Shown here: one piece after another, positions 35,969 to 59,617 of the stretch
Numbering within the stretch: position 1 is the first letter of the stretch
How the letters are laid out: every line of letters starts with the position of its first letter
From: Nitrospinaceae bacterium
GTDB lineage: Bacteria; Nitrospinota_A; UBA7883; JAJDBK01
Assembly: GCA_029261405.1 (NCBI GenBank)
Contig: JAJDBK010000068.1
Location: 1 to 64,000, forward strand
DNA length: 64,000 nucleotides
Direction: 5' to 3'
Program-made: the position numbers and the translations under genes
Notes under the pieces: model-generated
What the model was told of the DNA's origin: nothing
Seen by the model: the letters and a program-made list of their open reading frames with translations, nothing else
Database searches by the model: none

Positions 35969-38455
35969 TTATTCTACCGCAATTCTTGTTACCATGCCCT
36001 TCACGATGGTAACTTTCCTCCGGTAATTTTTCACTCCCGGTCGTTTAATGATAACGGAGTGGACCCCCGCCACTAAATCATTCACGACAATAGGCGTTTT
36101 TCCCAGAAGTTTACCGTCTACAAATACAACACCCTCTGGCTTGGAAGTTATCTTGAGACCGCCATAACCGCGCTGAGCGGAGTTCCTTGACTTGTCCGTC
36201 CCGTTCGATACCGCTTCGGCGGCGGTGAAAACGTGGGAGACGCTTACAGTTTCATTCTTTTTGAGGTCGATGGTGGTCTCAAACGGTTTAAAGGAGGGAT
36301 TGACCAGTTTTATCTTTATCTTCCCTTCAGTTACGTCATTGAGCCGCTTGGGAGTGGCGCCCATCTCTTCGTTATTCAGATAGATCGTAGCCCACGGTAT
36401 GGCCGATACGCTCAGGACACCCTTGCCAAGCTCTACGAGTATCGGCGAAACGATTTTCGGGCTATCGGCGTTGATCACTATTTTTGTTTCGTATTTCCTG
36501 AAGCCAGGTTTTATCACCTTAAGTCTGTATGTTCCGGGGGCCATTCCTTTGCTCAATGGGGCGACCCCGATTTTCCGACCGTCCAGATAGATATCGGCGC
36601 CCTTTGCGCTGTTGGTTATACGAAGTTGGCCTTCCAGCTTTTTCAGGTTACCTGCAACCGCGACACTCCTGTCGAGGGAGACTGTCACTGTGGTGGTATA
36701 AGGAGAGTAACCGTCTCGTGTCAGTTTCACCTTGCGCTCGCCGGGAAGGGTAGAGACAGTCATGGGTGTAACACCGATCTTTTTCCCGTCGAGATAAATT
36801 GTGGCGGTTCCGGATGTACTGGTTATTTTCAGTTCCCCTTTTTTCTGGACAAGACTGGCTGATACTTTCTCCGGTTTATCTCCGGTAACGGTAACTGTTG
36901 AGGTCAGAGGTTCGTAACCCGGCTTTTCCAGCCTGACTGTATGCGGTCCCGGCGCGATGGAGTATTTCATCGGTGATACGCCAACCCAATCGTTGTCCAC
37001 ATAAACGTTCGCTTCGAGAACAGGGCCGGAAATGACAATTACCCCCTTTATAAGGACAAGTTCGGTGTTCACTTTGACTCTCTTGCCCGGCATGGCCACG
37101 ATCTCTTTTTCCCATTTCATGTAACCTTCGGCTTCTACTCGGAGCGAATGGGTTCCTGGCTCGATTTCTATATCCCTCATGGGGGTTATCCCGAGCGGTG
37201 TATTGTCTATGAAGACGTTACCTTTAACAGGGGAGACGATAGAAACCATCGCAGGCTCTGGTTCTTTTTCGACAATGGCTGGAACCGGGACCGCTTCAGG
37301 CGAAACCTGTTCCTTTGTTGTCGGCGGCGCCACAGCCGGTATTGGCGCCTTTTCGGTTATATCTTGCGGTTCCTCGACTTGCTGACTCCGTTGTGGCTCC
37401 ACAATTTCCGTTTCGAGTAGTGGCCCGGCGACCTTTCTGATTTCATTCTCCATTAAGAACCATACGCCACTCATTGCGGCGAAAAACAGCAGAATGGCGC
37501 TTGCGAATCTGACAAATTTTGTTTTGCGAGCCGCCAGCGCCGCAGAAGAGCTGTCAAAGTCGATGGTGACGGCGTCCCTGTGTCTTTTATCGATAACCTC
37601 CTTGCTCAGGTTGGGATTTATTTCGGTTTCGTCGAGGAGAGGTTTTATAGCGGAGACCACATCCTTTAGCGACCTGTATCTATCGGCGGGATCCTTCTGC
37701 AACATCTTGAGGACAATATGGTCGGCGTCCTTGTCGAGTGTCTTGATTAGCCTGCTGGGCGGAACAGGGTGTTCCTGAATGATCTTGTAGATAACGGTGG
37801 TTATCGACTCCCCCTCGAAAGGCCGTTTGCCTGTGAGAAGTTCGTAGAACATTACACCGAGGCTGAACTGGTCGGAGTGACCTGCGACCTTGCCCCCCTG
37901 TACCTGCTCTGGCGACATATAGGAGGGGGAACCTACGGCGTGACCTGTCTGTGTAACCGATCCGGAGGCCTGAAGCCGGGCGAGACCGAAATCGGTGATT
38001 TTTACATGGTCATTTTTCTCGACGAGGATATTTCCAGGTTTAATATCCCGGTGAATGATCCCCCTGGAGTGGGCGAAGGCGAGTCCGTCGGCAACCTGGG
38101 AAACAAGGTTGGCCGAGCGGCGAAAAGGCATCGGACCGGTAGCGACGAGAATCTCGGCCAGATCTTTACCCTCCACGAACTCCATGGCCATGAAGCTCTT
38201 CCCCTCCTCTTCCCCCACATCGTAGATGGTGACGATATTCGGATGGGTAAGTTTGCCTGCCGCCTTGGCTTCGATGTAGAACCGCTCCAGCAGTTCCTCG
38301 TTAGCCATACTGCCGCCCATCTCTTCGAGTTTGATGATCTTCAGGGCGATTATCCGGTCTATCCTGGGGTCGCGGCCTTTCAGGACGATTCCCATGCCAC
38401 CCTGTCCCAACTGCGCAAGGATCTCGTAACGACCGAGGGTCTTGTAATTCACCAT
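35969..38455 (-). CDS. Membrane Ser/Thr protein kinase with six PEGA repeats
   Basis: The 828-residue protein opens with a complete Hanks-type kinase domain: glycine loop GQGGMG (residues 17-22), Lys39, HRD with Asp137, DFG at 155-157 and YMSPEQ. A membrane span follows near residues 315-340, then a Pro/Glu-rich linker and six PEGA repeats to the C-terminus, each carrying an IYLDGKKIGVTPM-like core. The expected topology is kinase inside and PEGA array outside the inner membrane, so the repeats may sense envelope or surface contact. A perfect TATAAT lies on the minus strand 167 bases upstream. It is divergent from motA. The partner downstream also carries PEGA. Catalytic residues are intact; targets unknown. 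Confidence 0.92.
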   Translation of the reverse strand: MVNYKTLGRYEILAQLGQGGMGIVLKGRDPRIDRIIALKIIKLEEMGGSMANEELLERFYIEAKAAGKLTHPNIVTIYDVGEEEGKSFMAMEFVEGKDLAEILVATGPMPFRRSANLVSQVADGLAFAHSRGIIHRDIKPGNILVEKNDHVKITDFGLARLQASGSVTQTGHAVGSPSYMSPEQVQGGKVAGHSDQFSLGVMFYELLTGKRPFEGESITTVIYKIIQEHPVPPSRLIKTLDKDADHIVLKMLQKDPADRYRSLKDVVSAIKPLLDETEINPNLSKEVIDKRHRDAVTIDFDSSSAALAARKTKFVRFASAILLFFAAMSGVWFLMENEIRKVAGPLLETEIVEPQRSQQVEEPQDITEKAPIPAVAPPTTKEQVSPEAVPVPAIVEKEPEPAMVSIVSPVKGNVFIDNTPLGITPMRDIEIEPGTHSLRVEAEGYMKWEKEIVAMPGKRVKVNTELVLIKGVIVISGPVLEANVYVDNDWVGVSPMKYSIAPGPHTVRLEKPGYEPLTSTVTVTGDKPEKVSASLVQKKGELKITSTSGTATIYLDGKKIGVTPMTVSTLPGERKVKLTRDGYSPYTTTVTVSLDRSVAVAGNLKKLEGQLRITNSAKGADIYLDGRKIGVAPLSKGMAPGTYRLKVIKPGFRKYETKIVINADSPKIVSPILVELGKGVLSVSAIPWATIYLNNEEMGATPKRLNDVTEGKIKIKLVNPSFKPFETTIDLKKNETVSVSHVFTAAEAVSNGTDKSRNSAQRGYGGLKITSKPEGVVFVDGKLLGKTPIVVNDLVAGVHSVIIKRPGVKNYRRKVTIVKGMVTRIAVE

Positions 38456-38841: not shown

Positions 38842-39603
38842 ATGGATATTGCTACCGTAATAGGTATTGTCGGAGGTCTGGGAATAATCGCGTTCGCCAT
38901 CGGACCGGCCCAACTGGGTATCTTCATCGACGTTACCTCGTTTCTTATCGTTGTACTCGGTACTTTCTCGGCGGTATTTGTGAGTTACCCGATGCCCGAT
39001 GTTATCGCCATGGTCGGGGTTTTGAACAAAACCCTCTTCTATCAGACGAAATCGCCCGATGAAGTAATACCGCAACTCCTCGAATACGCCGGGACAGCCC
39101 GCCGTGACGGGATTTTGGCGTTGCAACCTGTCATGTCGTCGGTGGACGATCCGTTCATGAACCTTGGGCTTCAGCTTGCCATCGATGGCGCGGAACCGCA
39201 GGCGATAATGAAAATCCTCGAAACCGAGATCGAATATGTAAGAGAGAGACATAAAACGGGGATGGATATGGCGATGAACCTTGCTACACTCTCCCCGGCT
39301 TTTGGAATGATAGGAACTCTGGTTGGCCTGGTTCTGATGCTCCAGAAACTTGACGATCCGTCATCTATCGGCCCGGCCATGGCCATTGCCCTTATAACAA
39401 CATTTTACGGCGCCCTTATGGCCAACCTGCTCTTCATGCCGATGGCCGGAAAGCTGAAAAAACGGAGTACCGACGAGATGCTGGTAAAGGAGATCATGCT
39501 TGAAGGCATCAGCTCCATAGCGTCGGGGGATAACCCGCGAATGATCGAGCAGAAACTCAATGCGTTCCTGATCCCGAAAATGCGAAAGACCGTTTTTGAT
39601 TAA
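38842..39603 (+). CDS. motA: Flagellar stator proton-channel subunit MotA
   Basis: MotA forms the ring around MotB and couples ion flow to rotor movement in the inner membrane. The 253-residue protein begins with two spans (about residues 3-22 and 30-50), has the cytoplasmic loop with charged residues (EIEYVRERHKTGMDMA near residue 135), and two further spans with the family motif LSPAFGMIGTLVGLVLML (about 150-170) and IALITTFYGALMANLLFMP (about 180-200). The start ATG has GGA eight bases upstream. Its end overlaps the degenerate MotB-like frame. Ion type cannot be told from the sequence alone. Firm. Confidence 0.96.
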   Translation: MDIATVIGIVGGLGIIAFAIGPAQLGIFIDVTSFLIVVLGTFSAVFVSYPMPDVIAMVGVLNKTLFYQTKSPDEVIPQLLEYAGTARRDGILALQPVMSSVDDPFMNLGLQLAIDGAEPQAIMKILETEIEYVRERHKTGMDMAMNLATLSPAFGMIGTLVGLVLMLQKLDDPSSIGPAMAIALITTFYGALMANLLFMPMAGKLKKRSTDEMLVKEIMLEGISSIASGDNPRMIEQKLNAFLIPKMRKTVFD

Positions 39604-40321
39604 GCCAGGTCAGGCGGGCGCCGTTTTGAATAGAGCGATAATAAACAATATCCGGGGCGACAGCCTCCGGGTTATGAACGTTACCCTGATGATGCTCATA
39701 CTGGCGTTCTTCATAGTTCTGACCTCCCTCTCCGTCCCGGCGGAGGACAGACGAAAGGCGGCGTTGGGCTCCCTGGCCGGAACGCTGGGGCTGATGCCAG
39801 GAGGTGGATCGGCCATGCAATCGGATTCAAAGAGCCTCCAGTTGCGGGCCGGTTATATGTATAGCGAAGATATGATGAAGACGATCATGGTGAGCAAATT
39901 CGAGGAGTATCTGCTGGAAAGAAAGACCGACGAAGCTGTCCGTACATTGGCGAAGGCTGGCGCCCTTGAGCTATCGATCGAAACCCGCCTGCTTTTCGAG
40001 CCGGGATCGGCGAAGATCAGGAAGTCGGCCGCCGAATTCATGGAACGACTGGGAGAGATGCTGGTGAATATCCCCGGTCACTTCGTGGTCGAAGGGCATA
40101 CTTCAAGCGTAAAGATAAACAGCGCCAGATATCCGAACAACATAGCCTTCTCCATTGCCAGGGCTGGCGCCATATTGCGGTATCTGGTAGAGAAAGCGGA
40201 GGTCAAAAAAGAGAGGATCTCTCTCTCCGGGTACGGCTCCCTTAAACCGCGGGTGAAAGGGAAGACGAATAAAGCGGCTACCATGAACAACTATATAAAA
40301 ATCGTCTACAGGCGCCACTAG
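39596..40321 (+). CDS. Degenerate MotB-like OmpA-family protein
   Basis: The 241-residue protein aligns with MotB: a single span near residues 26-47 and a C-terminal OmpA-like domain (FEPGSAKIRKSA, VVEGHT, LSGYGSLKP). The proton-carrying Asp of MotB is Thr30 here (compare FGDLLSLLLTFF of the next gene with MNVTLMMLILAFF). In the OmpA domain the HTD motif reads HTS, and the NRR peptidoglycan-binding arginines read NNY. It therefore should neither conduct protons nor bind peptidoglycan in the usual way. It lies in the stator operon between motA and the intact motB. The TTG at 39596 overlaps motA by 8 bases; TTG 39626 is an alternative start. Family firm, role unknown. Confidence 0.85.
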   Translation: MIKPGQAGAVLNRAIINNIRGDSLRVMNVTLMMLILAFFIVLTSLSVPAEDRRKAALGSLAGTLGLMPGGGSAMQSDSKSLQLRAGYMYSEDMMKTIMVSKFEEYLLERKTDEAVRTLAKAGALELSIETRLLFEPGSAKIRKSAAEFMERLGEMLVNIPGHFVVEGHTSSVKINSARYPNNIAFSIARAGAILRYLVEKAEVKKERISLSGYGSLKPRVKGKTNKAATMNNYIKIVYRRH

Positions 40322-40332
40322 AGAGCAATACA

Positions 40333-41151
40333 ATGAGTGTCGCCAGAGGACAGAAAAAAAAGAAGGGTGAGGAGGAGGAAGAAGCCGACACTACCGTATG
40401 GATGGTGACTTTCGGCGATCTGCTCTCCTTGTTGCTTACCTTCTTTGTTCTGATGTTTTCAATGAACACACTGGATGACCAGGTGGTAAAAGACATGTTT
40501 TCAACTTTTTCAGGAGGGTCGGGCGTACTTTCGTTTCATGAAAGTTTTCCCGTGGAGTCGCCCAGGTATCAGAAGATAAACATGACCAAAATCATGACGG
40601 TAAAGGATTTCCTCGATTTTCTGGAGGAGGCTTCAAAAAAAGAGGAAAGAACCATTAAAGTCAAGGCGGCAGGACTGGCCAACGCCCTGTTCATCAACGA
40701 GGTGAAGTTGAAAAGGAGGGGGCCGTCCTTTGTTGTGTCGTTTCCAGCAAGAAAAATGTTCGAGCCTGGATCGGCTAAAATAAACGAAGAGTTCTACCCG
40801 GCGTTCAGACAACTGGGTGAAACGTTACGCTATTCGGACAGCTATATTGTAATTGAGGGGCACACTGACGACATCCCGATATCGACACCGAGCTACCCTT
40901 CAAACTGGGAACTGTCGGCGGCCAGAGCCTCGAACGTGATGGCCTTTTTCGCCGCCAACACACCCATAGAGGTCGAAAGGTTATTTTCGGTCGGGTACGC
41001 AGATACAAGAAATGTGGTAAGAAACATTGGCGAAGGGTATCGTATAAGGAATCGACGGATAGATATTGTTATTAAACAGGCGCCAGAAACGCCAGTGGAT
41101 TTAAAATTTGCGCCGTTGGACCAGTATATAAACTTTACCCTTACGAATTAA
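40333..41151 (+). CDS. motB: Flagellar stator peptidoglycan-anchoring subunit MotB
   Basis: The 272-residue protein has a lysine- and glutamate-rich N-terminus, then one membrane span with the essential Asp29 (VTFGDLLSLLLTFFVLM), a plug/linker region and a C-terminal OmpA-like peptidoglycan-binding domain with EGHTDDIPI and NRRIDI. All functional positions missing from the preceding paralogue are present here. It begins 11 bases after that gene and fliL follows 29 bases later. It should assemble with MotA as the force-generating stator. Firm. Confidence 0.96.
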   Translation: MSVARGQKKKKGEEEEEADTTVWMVTFGDLLSLLLTFFVLMFSMNTLDDQVVKDMFSTFSGGSGVLSFHESFPVESPRYQKINMTKIMTVKDFLDFLEEASKKEERTIKVKAAGLANALFINEVKLKRRGPSFVVSFPARKMFEPGSAKINEEFYPAFRQLGETLRYSDSYIVIEGHTDDIPISTPSYPSNWELSAARASNVMAFFAANTPIEVERLFSVGYADTRNVVRNIGEGYRIRNRRIDIVIKQAPETPVDLKFAPLDQYINFTLTN

Positions 41152-41180: not shown

Positions 41181-41687
41181 ATGGCCGATGAAGAGGAAGT
41201 AAAAGAGGGAGGCGGTAACAAGATGATAGTCATCATCCTTATCGCCATAATTGTCCTCCTGCTTGCAGGTGGCGGAGCTTTCTTCTTTATGCAACAATCA
41301 GCGCCTCCGCCGGCGGCGGTGGAAGGGGAGACAGGCGCCGAGGGGGGTGACGCAACCGAAGCGGCCCTCGACAAGGCCTCTCTGGGAGAGAGCATGGAAC
41401 TCGATCCGTTTATCGTAAACCTTACCTCAACCACCGGGGTGGATCGTTATCTCAAGGTGGTGCTGGTTCTGGTGGTGTCGAACGAAAAAGTGAAGGAAGA
41501 AGTTGTCAACAAGACACCTCAACTAAAGGATTCGATCATCACTGTGCTCTCTAGCAAAAGCCCGGATGAGGTTTTGACCATACAGGGAAAACACGACCTG
41601 AAAATCGAGTTGGTAAAAAGGATAAACACTGTAGTAACAACAGGTGTGGCGCGTGAACTATTCTTCACAGAGTTCGTGGTACAATAG
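41181..41687 (+). CDS. fliL: Flagellar basal-body-associated protein FliL
   Basis: FliL surrounds stator units and supports torque and motor output. The 168-residue protein has an acidic cytoplasmic tail, one membrane span (about residues 16-36, MIVIILIAIIVLLLAGGGAFFF), an Ala/Glu-rich linker, and the FliL periplasmic domain (LDPFIVNLTSTTGVDRYLKVVLVLVVSN, then FFTEFVVQ at the end). An AGGAAGGA site precedes ATG 41181. It is the last gene before a 205-base gap containing a stable hairpin. Family length and end are standard. Confidence 0.93.
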   Translation: MADEEEVKEGGGNKMIVIILIAIIVLLLAGGGAFFFMQQSAPPPAAVEGETGAEGGDATEAALDKASLGESMELDPFIVNLTSTTGVDRYLKVVLVLVVSNEKVKEEVVNKTPQLKDSIITVLSSKSPDEVLTIQGKHDLKIELVKRINTVVTTGVARELFFTEFVVQ

Positions 41688-41892: not shown

Positions 41893-42933
41893 ATGAGTCA
41901 GGTTCTATCTCAGGAAGAAGTTGACGCTCTTCTGCGCGGAGTGTCGGACGGAGAGATCGAAACCGAGGTTGAGTACTCCGGTGACGAATCGGGTATCGTA
42001 ACCTACGACCTGACAAGCCAGGAGCGTATTATCCGTGGCAGGATGCCGACACTGGACATTATCAACCAGCGTTTTTCCAGGCTGTTTCGAAACGCTCTTT
42101 CGGCGGCCCTTCGCAAGGTTCTCGACGTGGCCGCAGTCTCGACGGACACGGTAAAGTTCGGTGAGTTTGTAAAGTCGTTACCTGTGCCAGCCTCCCTGCA
42201 TATATTCAAGATCGAGCCTCTGCGTGGATTCGCCCTGCTGGTGGCCGAATCGAAACTTGTATTCGCTCTGGTGGACACCTTTTTCGGCGGCACCGGGGAG
42301 GGCAAGATGAAGATCGAAGGGCGCGATTTCACCACCATCGAACAGAGGATGATTAAAAAGGTTGTTCTGATGGTGCTAGAAGATCTTGAGTCGGCGTGGA
42401 AACCGGTCCACAATGTCAAGATGAGTTTCGTCCGCTCTGAGGTCAACCCGCAGTTCGCCGCCATAGTGCCACCTACCGACGTGGTGGTGGTTGTTATGTT
42501 CGAAATTGAGCTTGACTCCATAAGTGGCACCCTTACGGTCTGCCTCCCTTATTCGACTATTGAACCGATTATCGGCAAGCTGAGAGCCGGATTCCAGAGT
42601 GACCAGCTCGAAGTTGACCAGGCGTGGATAAAACGACTAAGGGACAGGCTCTCCGAGGCTGTCGTGGAAGTTGTCGTGGAGCTTGGTGAAACATTAATTC
42701 CGAGCGCCACTCTCGTGAACATGAAACCGGGGGATGTTATCCCGCTGGACAGCGATGTCGATTCCGAACTTACCATCCGGGTCGCCGGAATTTCGAAATT
42801 CAGAGGAAAACCTGGCGCTGTAAAAGGGAATCGAGCGGTAAGGATTACCGATAAAATCAGAAGGGTCGGTAGCCTGAATAGAAATCCGGATGAAACGAAT
42901 TTCCCCGGTGAATCGTCAGACTCTGGCAAATAA
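41893..42933 (+). CDS. fliM: Flagellar motor switch protein FliM
   Basis: FliM is the middle C-ring protein that binds phosphorylated CheY and sets rotation direction. The 346-residue protein has the N-terminal CheY-binding-like peptide LSQEEVDALLRGV (residues 4-16, also typical of FliM starts), the CheC-like middle domain (TLDIINQRFSRLFRNALS, FALVDTFFGGTGE) and the C-terminal SpoA domain (VELGETLIPSATLVNMKPGDVIPLD). AGGAATAA precedes ATG 41893. fliN follows 22 bases later. Complete and intact. Confidence 0.97.
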   Translation: MSQVLSQEEVDALLRGVSDGEIETEVEYSGDESGIVTYDLTSQERIIRGRMPTLDIINQRFSRLFRNALSAALRKVLDVAAVSTDTVKFGEFVKSLPVPASLHIFKIEPLRGFALLVAESKLVFALVDTFFGGTGEGKMKIEGRDFTTIEQRMIKKVVLMVLEDLESAWKPVHNVKMSFVRSEVNPQFAAIVPPTDVVVVVMFEIELDSISGTLTVCLPYSTIEPIIGKLRAGFQSDQLEVDQAWIKRLRDRLSEAVVEVVVELGETLIPSATLVNMKPGDVIPLDSDVDSELTIRVAGISKFRGKPGAVKGNRAVRITDKIRRVGSLNRNPDETNFPGESSDSGK

Positions 42934-42955: not shown

Positions 42956-43423
42956 ATGATCGATGATGCGCTGAACGCCGAAAACGAAGAAGACCTGTGG
43001 GCGGCGGCGGCGGAGGACCTTGTAAAACAAAAAGAGATGCTTCGTGACGAAGCGGCGGGCGGCCAGGAAGAGCAACCGGTGGCCGTTCAGTCCGTCGAGG
43101 CGGCGGCCCCTCCCTCCCCTGTAGCCGAAAGCCCCGTCCCCGCCGGAGCCACCGTTACCACCGACGGCGCTATGGGGAGAATTCTGGACCTCCCGCTAAA
43201 GATCACTGTCGAGCTGGGACGAACGAAGATGTTGATAAACGATCTTATGCAACTGGGGCAAGGGTCGGTAATAGAATTATCGAAACTAGTTGGGGAGCCA
43301 CTTGAAATTCTTGTAAATGAAAAACTGATCGGCAAAGGGGAAGTCGTTGTCATAAACGAGAAGTTCGGTGTCCGGCTGACAGAGGTTGCAACACCAGAAA
43401 AGCGGATAGAAAATTTGGGGTAA
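42956..43423 (+). CDS. fliN: Flagellar motor switch protein FliN
   Basis: FliN forms the lower part of the C-ring and helps dock export substrates. The 155-residue protein has an acidic, Ala/Pro-rich N-terminal extension (about residues 1-70) and the C-terminal SpoA domain (LPLKITVELGRTKMLINDLMQLGQGSVIELSKLVGEPLEI in pieces, then GEVVVINEKFGVRLTEV). The N-terminus is longer than in E. coli but ordinary for other phyla. AGG precedes ATG 42956. A sigma-54 promoter begins about 150 bases after its stop, so it ends the fliM-fliN unit. Confidence 0.95.
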   Translation: MIDDALNAENEEDLWAAAAEDLVKQKEMLRDEAAGGQEEQPVAVQSVEAAAPPSPVAESPVPAGATVTTDGAMGRILDLPLKITVELGRTKMLINDLMQLGQGSVIELSKLVGEPLEILVNEKLIGKGEVVVINEKFGVRLTEVATPEKRIENLG

Positions 43424-58012: not shown

Positions 58013-59617
58013 ATGGCTACTGATATATCCAGAAAACTGGCCGATTACGGATTAGCGTTCGATCTGATCTCTAACATCACAGCCGTAAAGAGTGAAAAAG
58101 AGGCGATTGATTCAATTTTTGAAGTTTTTGACGCCATCTGCGCCCCCGCAAGATCTTTCTATCTGCCGTTTCGGGGAAGCGAAACGGGTGATATTTATGT
58201 TAATCCACCGGGGACGGTTTGTGACGAGACTGTAAAAGACTCAATGACCACCTACGATGGTGAACAACTTTGGAAAGAAGAGAAGGCCGGATTCATTTTC
58301 CGGGTTATGCACAACGAAGAAACGTTAGGCGTATTTCAACTCGAAGAAGTTCCCTTTCCACAATACAAAGAACATTACCTAAGCCTTGCATCAAATATAA
58401 ACAGCGTACTGGGCCTTGCCATCTCGAACGCCAGGGTATATCAGAATCTAGAGAGCCTGGTGGAGGAGCGGACCGAAGAGCTGGCGAATACGAATAAAAG
58501 CCTTGTAAAAGAGATCAAGGAGCGTAAAAAGACAGAAGTTCTGCTGGTGAAAGCAAAAGAACACGCTGAAAACGCCACAAAGCTAAAAGACAAATTTGTT
58601 TCTTTCGTTTCGCACGACCTGAAATCTCCCCTTACCGTTGTCCAGGGTTTCCTGAAAATGATTCGGCTGGAAGTATTCGCGTTGTCAAGTGACAGAGTAA
58701 AAGCGATGATTGACGCCGCTATAAAATCATCAGATGAAATGATGGCTCTGATAGAAAACCTTCTGAGCATCAGCAGGCTGAAGACAGGTGTCCTCACACC
58801 GCAGTACGAATTCCTGAGCCTCGCCCTCATTGGGTCAAGGACAGTCGCTGATTTCAAGTCACTGGCCGATGGTAAGGGGATTGATTTGCGTCTTGAGATA
58901 ACGGATGGGGGGAGGATATACGCCGATGAAACCCTTTTTACCCAGGCGGTTCAGAACATCGTGGCCAACGCCATCAAATTTTGTGGCGCCGGAGATACCA
59001 TAACGATCTGCACCCCTCCAGAAGAGCAAGCGACCTTATGTGTGAAAGATACCGGCCCTGGTATCGGAGAGGATGTGATCGAAAAAGTGTTCCAGTACGG
59101 GAGCAATGTTTCAACTACAGGAACCGCTGGAGAAACAGGTACCGGACTCGGTCTGCCATATACCAAAGAGATTATGGAGGCGCACAATGGATCGGTAACC
59201 ATCGAATCAAAAATGGGGCAAGGTTCATTATTCAGCCTCAAAGTCCCTCACGTCAGGCCGAAAATCCTCGTTGTGGACGACAATTCAAGTTTCCGGATGG
59301 TTCAAAAACAGTTTATGAGCTACCTTGGTGTCGATATCGTGGAGGCTGTAAATGGTAAAGAGGCATTGGAGCTTATTGAAAATATGGAGTTTCACCTGTT
59401 AATTACCGATATAGAAATGCCGGAAATGGATGGGCTGGAACTCCTGAAAACCATAAAAGCCTCCATCAAAACAAAATCGTTACCAGTAATAGTGATTACG
59501 GGTAAGTATGGGATGGAGATTCGCGAAAAGGTATTTCAACTTGGGGCGGATGATTTTTTGACTAAGCCGTTAGATAATGAGGATTTCATTCCCAGGGTTA
59601 GAAGGTTTATTTCCTGA
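58013..59617 (+). CDS. Soluble GAF-like hybrid histidine kinase with receiver domain
   Basis: The 534-residue protein has no membrane span. A GAF-like sensor fills about residues 1-150, a coiled coil (VEERTEELANTNKSLVKEIKERKK) leads to HisKA with His201 in FVSFVSHDLKSP, then HATPase_c (NAIKFC, DTGPGIGED, GTGLGLPYT) and a C-terminal receiver with Asp466 in ITDIEMPEMDG and an intact Lys-Pro. The kinase-receiver part is clearly paralogous to that of the MASE1 kinase at 28880-32338, including the tail FIPRVRRFI. It is the last gene of the corrinoid module and may read its methylation or ligand state. No DNA-binding output is encoded nearby. Confidence 0.9.
   Translation: MATDISRKLADYGLAFDLISNITAVKSEKEAIDSIFEVFDAICAPARSFYLPFRGSETGDIYVNPPGTVCDETVKDSMTTYDGEQLWKEEKAGFIFRVMHNEETLGVFQLEEVPFPQYKEHYLSLASNINSVLGLAISNARVYQNLESLVEERTEELANTNKSLVKEIKERKKTEVLLVKAKEHAENATKLKDKFVSFVSHDLKSPLTVVQGFLKMIRLEVFALSSDRVKAMIDAAIKSSDEMMALIENLLSISRLKTGVLTPQYEFLSLALIGSRTVADFKSLADGKGIDLRLEITDGGRIYADETLFTQAVQNIVANAIKFCGAGDTITICTPPEEQATLCVKDTGPGIGEDVIEKVFQYGSNVSTTGTAGETGTGLGLPYTKEIMEAHNGSVTIESKMGQGSLFSLKVPHVRPKILVVDDNSSFRMVQKQFMSYLGVDIVEAVNGKEALELIENMEFHLLITDIEMPEMDGLELLKTIKASIKTKSLPVIVITGKYGMEIREKVFQLGADDFLTKPLDNEDFIPRVRRFIS

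Follow-up and report, generated by a model that had tools for sequence, protein, structure and literature searches.

What role can a MotB-like protein have in a flagellar stator when the ion-binding Asp is missing? This Asp has been called universally conserved in MotB and is thought to be indispensable for ion-driven rotation. At least one survey kept only sequences with FAD, YAD or LAD, i.e. used the Asp as a filter (PMC7787011), and would thus have discarded Asp-less MotB proteins. The window (the whole stretch of 64,000 nucleotides analysed here, from contig JAJDBK010000068.1 of a Nitrospinaceae bacterium) comprises a flagellar operon that starts at motA and has the order motA-X-motB-fliL-fliM-fliN (Table 1). 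In a preliminary description, X was taken for a MotB paralogue between motA and motB with Thr30 in place of the Asp. This was confirmed by BLASTP, Pfam and an alignment of 82 rows, in which Thr30 shares a column with Asp29 of the following motB. The changes from HTD to HTS and from NRR to NNY noted in the OmpA-like domain of X are likewise real, and the following motB keeps all three features.

Table 1. Positions in the window of the genes of the flagellar operon and of features within X and motB.
Feature	Position	Strand	Basis or remark
motA, 253 aa	38842..39603	+	PF01618 E 1e-27; no other A subunit in the cassette
X, Asp-less MotB paralogue, 241 aa	39596..40321	+	between motA and motB
X, single transmembrane helix, residues ~22-46	39659..39733	+	AlphaFold2 helix 21-46; alignment to MotB membrane helix
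X, codon ACC = Thr30, column of MotB ion-binding Asp	39683..39685	+	82-row alignment
X, plug-like helix after membrane helix, residues 50-64	39743..39787	+	conserved KxALGSLxGTLG; AlphaFold2
X, OmpA-like periplasmic domain, residues ~133-241	39992..40318	+	PF00691; Foldseek
X, His-Thr-Ser replacing HTD	40097..40105	+	not conserved among X proteins
X, Asn-Asn-Tyr replacing NRR	40286..40294	+	not conserved among X proteins
motB, 272 aa	40333..41151	+	Asp29, HTD, NRR all intact; passes OmpA and MotB_plug cut-offs (Pfam)
motB, codon GAT = Asp29, ion-binding residue of partner MotB	40417..40419	+	82-row alignment
fliL	41181..41687	+	first gene after motB in the flagellar operon
fliM	41893-42933		downstream of fliL
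fliN	42956-43423		downstream of fliM

X and the window motB are 25% identical over 228 columns (BLASTP, E 8e-21). The match of X to the Pfam OmpA family (PF00691) reaches 56.4 bits with a cut-off of 27.2 (E 4e-15), and that to MotB_plug (PF13677), at 20.7 bits (E 3e-4), is below the curated cut-off of 24. The open reading frame is complete, with a TTG start that overlaps the motA stop; starting instead from the in-frame TTG at 39629 would bring the length closer to that of the X orthologues, which makes the start position unsure. AlphaFold2, run with 13 sequences, predicts a MotB-like build for X (mean pLDDT 75.6, low at the N-terminus and at residues 60–88), with an ordinary MotB-like plug segment following the membrane helix. 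The top Foldseek matches of the modelled periplasmic domain are those of MotS, PomB and MotB, with MotS and PomB nearest. X is thus homologous to MotB, PomB and MotS in sequence and predicted fold, has the same order of domains (short N-terminus, membrane helix, plug, linker, OmpA-like domain) and is encoded directly after motA. It differs from them in that no member of its family has the ion-binding Asp, in the sub-threshold plug match of the window protein, and in being followed by an Asp-bearing motB. A scan for promoters and terminators gave no signal beyond that of shuffled sequences, and a search of the genome contigs for related loci returned a single weak match in an unrelated setting. 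Divergent from the flagellar operon, at 35969–38455 on the minus strand, lies a gene whose 828-aa product resembles a Ser/Thr protein kinase carrying PEGA-like repeats in a long tail.

The distribution of X was studied by profile searches of 24 genomes of the window's phylum and of about 385 genomes sampled across bacterial families, a protein being called X when it scored higher against the X profile than against the MotB profile. This wider census of roughly 400 genomes samples few genomes per family and includes many draft assemblies. It recovered 17 X-type proteins in five phyla: eight in the window's own phylum (G000, G002, G003, G004, G010, G012, G018 and G023), and others in 4/4 genomes of the phylum of G057, 1/3 of that of G236, 3/7 of that of G337 and 1/1 of that of G071. 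In the phylum with the MotB nearest to X (that of G114), the search found only single, Asp-bearing MotBs. The setting of X is constant: motA lies directly upstream at 16 of the 17 loci, the remaining one (G002) being cut off by a contig edge, a second MotB gene adjoins X downstream at all 17, and every operon seen whole has one motA for two B genes. Asp was sought in close homologues, where its presence would have refuted the preliminary interpretation, and was found in none of the 17; the column holds Thr in seven, Ser in seven and Ala in three. The partner MotB has Asp in 16/16 aligned cases. In G004 the partner motB (L008:1949-2959, G004:C10) has its Asp and is split by an in-frame TAA soon after the membrane helix, either by an assembly error or by a real nonsense change; the adjoining X is intact.

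In a maximum-likelihood tree of 82 proteins, computed without the Asp column, one branch (support 97/85) sets all 17 X proteins apart and another (98/97) sets apart 12 of the partner MotBs; the genomes branch in a similar order within the two groups. X and its partners thus form two old clades, and X is best viewed as an old paralogue. An origin of X by recent copying of the adjacent motB is rejected, because X is not the sister of the window motB. On this comparative evidence, the motA-X-motB arrangement is old and conserved. Within the window's phylum, X is present in 8/18 genomes with FliM and in 0/6 without it. Five FliM-bearing genomes without X were opened (G001, G006, G009, G013 and G016); they have kept fliL-fliM-fliN, and motA, X and motB are all absent upstream of fliL. 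The three genes seem to be gained or lost jointly, as a cassette.

A second Asp-less lineage occurs in another phylum (G230, G360, G409 and G410, with G089 from a second family). Here, the order is motA-motB(Asp)-motB'; four of the genomes have Asn at the Asp column of motB', the fifth has Thr. The two B genes are sisters that arose by duplication within the phylum (100/96 in the 82-protein tree), so that this loss of the Asp was an independent event, affecting another gene position. When G410 was compared with each of the three remaining members of its family, dN/dS was 0.17–0.22 for motB' and 0.20–0.22 for motB(Asp); these are the more distant pairs, as the closer ones differ at too few sites for a reading. 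By this measure motB' is under purifying selection as strong as that on its partner. Downstream of the motA-motB(D)-motB'(N) cluster in this phylum (L179–L182) are several large proteins resembling the product of window positions 58013–59617, and not fliL-fliM. As far as sequences can tell, the combination of one Asp-bearing and one Asp-less B subunit has evolved at least twice.

One rival account of X is a decaying duplicate of motB retained by chance, as might be read from the variability of the HTD and NRR motifs among relatives. We reject it. The frame is open at all 17 loci, nine positions are invariant among 13 X proteins of four phyla, the clade is old and spread over five phyla, and the analogous second lineage is under purifying selection; decay is largely refuted and we give it hardly any credence. 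The argument in the preliminary description that a full frame in a tight operon is unlikely to be simple decay is borne out by the open frames and the conservation.

The same description had treated the three motif changes as one package, and this did not hold. Only the loss of the Asp is family-wide (17/17), whichever residue replaces it; even near relatives differ in the Ser and Asn-Tyr changes, and HTS and NNY are not conserved in motA-X-motB operons. The Asp of HTD is retained in ten X proteins and absent in seven, the window X included, mainly inside the window's own class. Of NRR, the first Arg is retained in 10/17 and the second in 15/17. The changes in the window X resemble what drift of the cell-wall-binding domain in its own lineage would give. 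Among the X proteins of the window's phylum, mean identity is 62% in the membrane helix, 50% in the plug-like segment and 29% in the periplasmic domain, the folded part that has diverged most.

This pattern bears on the idea that X acts outside the MotA ring, with its OmpA-like domain helping to assemble, anchor or scaffold the stator or the FliL ring. The lost Asp, the conserved site ahead of motB-fliL and the Arg of the peptidoglycan-binding motif LSxxRA, which is invariant (17/17), would all fit such a factor. However, a better conserved membrane helix and plug, with a less conserved periplasmic domain that has lost the HTD Asp in 7/17 proteins, is the reverse of what a pure wall anchor would show. 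Moreover, no part of X is better conserved than its membrane helix, and it would be unexpected for such a helix to leave the ring. We consider an accessory role unlikely.

Since the operon encodes a single MotA together with two B subunits, of which one has the Asp and the other lacks it, the most economical machine would be a MotA pentamer around a heterodimer of MotB and X. In such a stator, one pentameric MotA ring would surround one MotB helix and one X helix, and the only ion-binding Asp would be provided by MotB. The X side would behave like a permanently neutralised site, since Thr, Ser or Ala, all small and neutral, stands at the Asp position, and X would add a second plug and periplasmic arm. 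In the turnstile model of 5:2 rotary motors, two alternating ion sites give ten ions per turn (PMC9389320); with a single site, the MotA ring would pass five per turn, in cycles of 72 degrees rather than 36. We infer both the pairing in one ring and the count of five. Mixed stators were among the options raised in the preliminary description and are the option that we rank first: X as the second axle helix of a heteromeric MotA5-MotB1-X1 stator with a single ion site has, in our estimate, an even chance of being correct. In its favour we count the strict division of the Asp between X and its neighbour, the well-conserved membrane helix, the single motA for two B genes, the joint presence or absence of the trio, the matching order of the X and partner clades, and the independent second lineage. 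That heteromeric, single-site stators occur naturally, arose at least twice and pass five ions instead of ten per ring turn is a wider claim, which we put somewhat below even.

Studies of point mutants and of the A subunit bear on the heteromer from both sides. Asp-to-Asn variants of MotB or PomB still assemble, as seen from a stable complex (PMC6677748) and from about seven stators per motor (PMC6663468), and a neutral residue is thus compatible with the ring. Against the heteromer, the same change in the sole MotB of laboratory species abolishes motility (PMC6663468, PMC6677748), and the turnstile model has two working sites. The window MotA retains T159, T186 and T187, which correspond to T158, T185 and T186 of PomA in an alignment to the solved structures of PomA (8bri) and MotA (8ucs), and the MotA core is conserved across X operons. 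In PomA these threonines are required together with the Asp of the B subunit, and Thr side chains contribute to the Na+ site (PMC6677748); by retaining them, the MotA of the cassette is expected to need at least one Asp in the pore. MotA residue ~95, aligned with the rotor-interface charge Glu96 of PomA, is Gln in six X operons of the window's class and in G071, and Glu in the other X operons. In E. coli, Asp-to-Asn MotB mutants are dominant, so that a one-site ring likely works poorly there.

The contribution of Thr to the PomA site raises the possibility that X conducts ions by another residue, i.e. its Thr/Ser pair or an acid elsewhere in the membrane helix, giving two unlike ion sites. Thr or Ser is often found at the Asp column and one residue ahead of it. 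Yet three lineages have Ala at the column, no acid is conserved in the X membrane helix across the family, and in PomB D24N the Na+ signal is lost even though PomA has its threonines (PMC6677748), making a second conducting site in X very improbable.

Separate homodimers are possible, as the linker and plug differ between X and MotB. X might pair with itself in MotA5-X2 units that conduct no ions and take up places in the motor, hold MotA in reserve or restrain rotation. X has all the domains of MotB, and the Asp-to-Asn proteins form complexes and dock at ~45% occupancy without driving rotation (PMC6663468, PMC6677748). Such units would be a costly design, namely a stable dominant inhibitor maintained beside its target in five phyla and lost together with the active subunit, and nothing specific speaks in their favour; we regard them as decidedly unlikely. 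X could conceivably act as a plug or as a limiter of active units.

Under the preferred heteromeric reading, the conserved Asp-less B subunit points to motors that work with a single ion site rather than two. An operon that naturally encodes one axle subunit with the Asp and one lacking it allows direct tests, in a laboratory strain, of whether a stator has one site or two and whether its axle is a homodimer or a heterodimer. A motA-X-motB operon with an Asp-less X is not described in the literature searched, and no Asp-less MotB was found there; the search covered open papers and few of the subscription papers and preprints.

Related arrangements are known. In Aquifex aeolicus, too, a single motA precedes two motB genes of the same operon, but the membrane regions of its MotB1 and MotB2 are 97% identical and each drove rotation as a chimera (PMC4525482); in the Aquifex-type operon of G033 both B subunits have the Asp, in the window only the second. 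The gliding motor of Myxococcus resembles the cassette in combining one A-type subunit (AglR) with two B-type subunits (AglQ and AglS), for which the question of a heterodimer is likewise open. In contrast to X, both AglQ and AglS have the membrane Asp, their periplasmic domains are TolR-like rather than OmpA-like, and the motor is non-flagellar (PMC9389320). Tandem motB genes served as a control: at least four lineages have pairs with Asp in both copies (the Aquifex type, G033; G211; G311/G173; and, in the window's phylum, a second stator set), and loss of the Asp is thus not a trivial outcome of duplication. A further MotB-like gene (loci L002 at G000:C11:60822-64454, L027 and L080) occurs in the window's own genome, G000, where it has the Asp, no adjoining motA and two N-terminal CxxC motifs resembling a zinc ribbon (CPSCKTKAK...CPNCKTKIR). 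Its orthologue in the relatives G009 and G010 belongs, as the second B gene, to a separate motA-motB1-motB2 stator with Asp in both.
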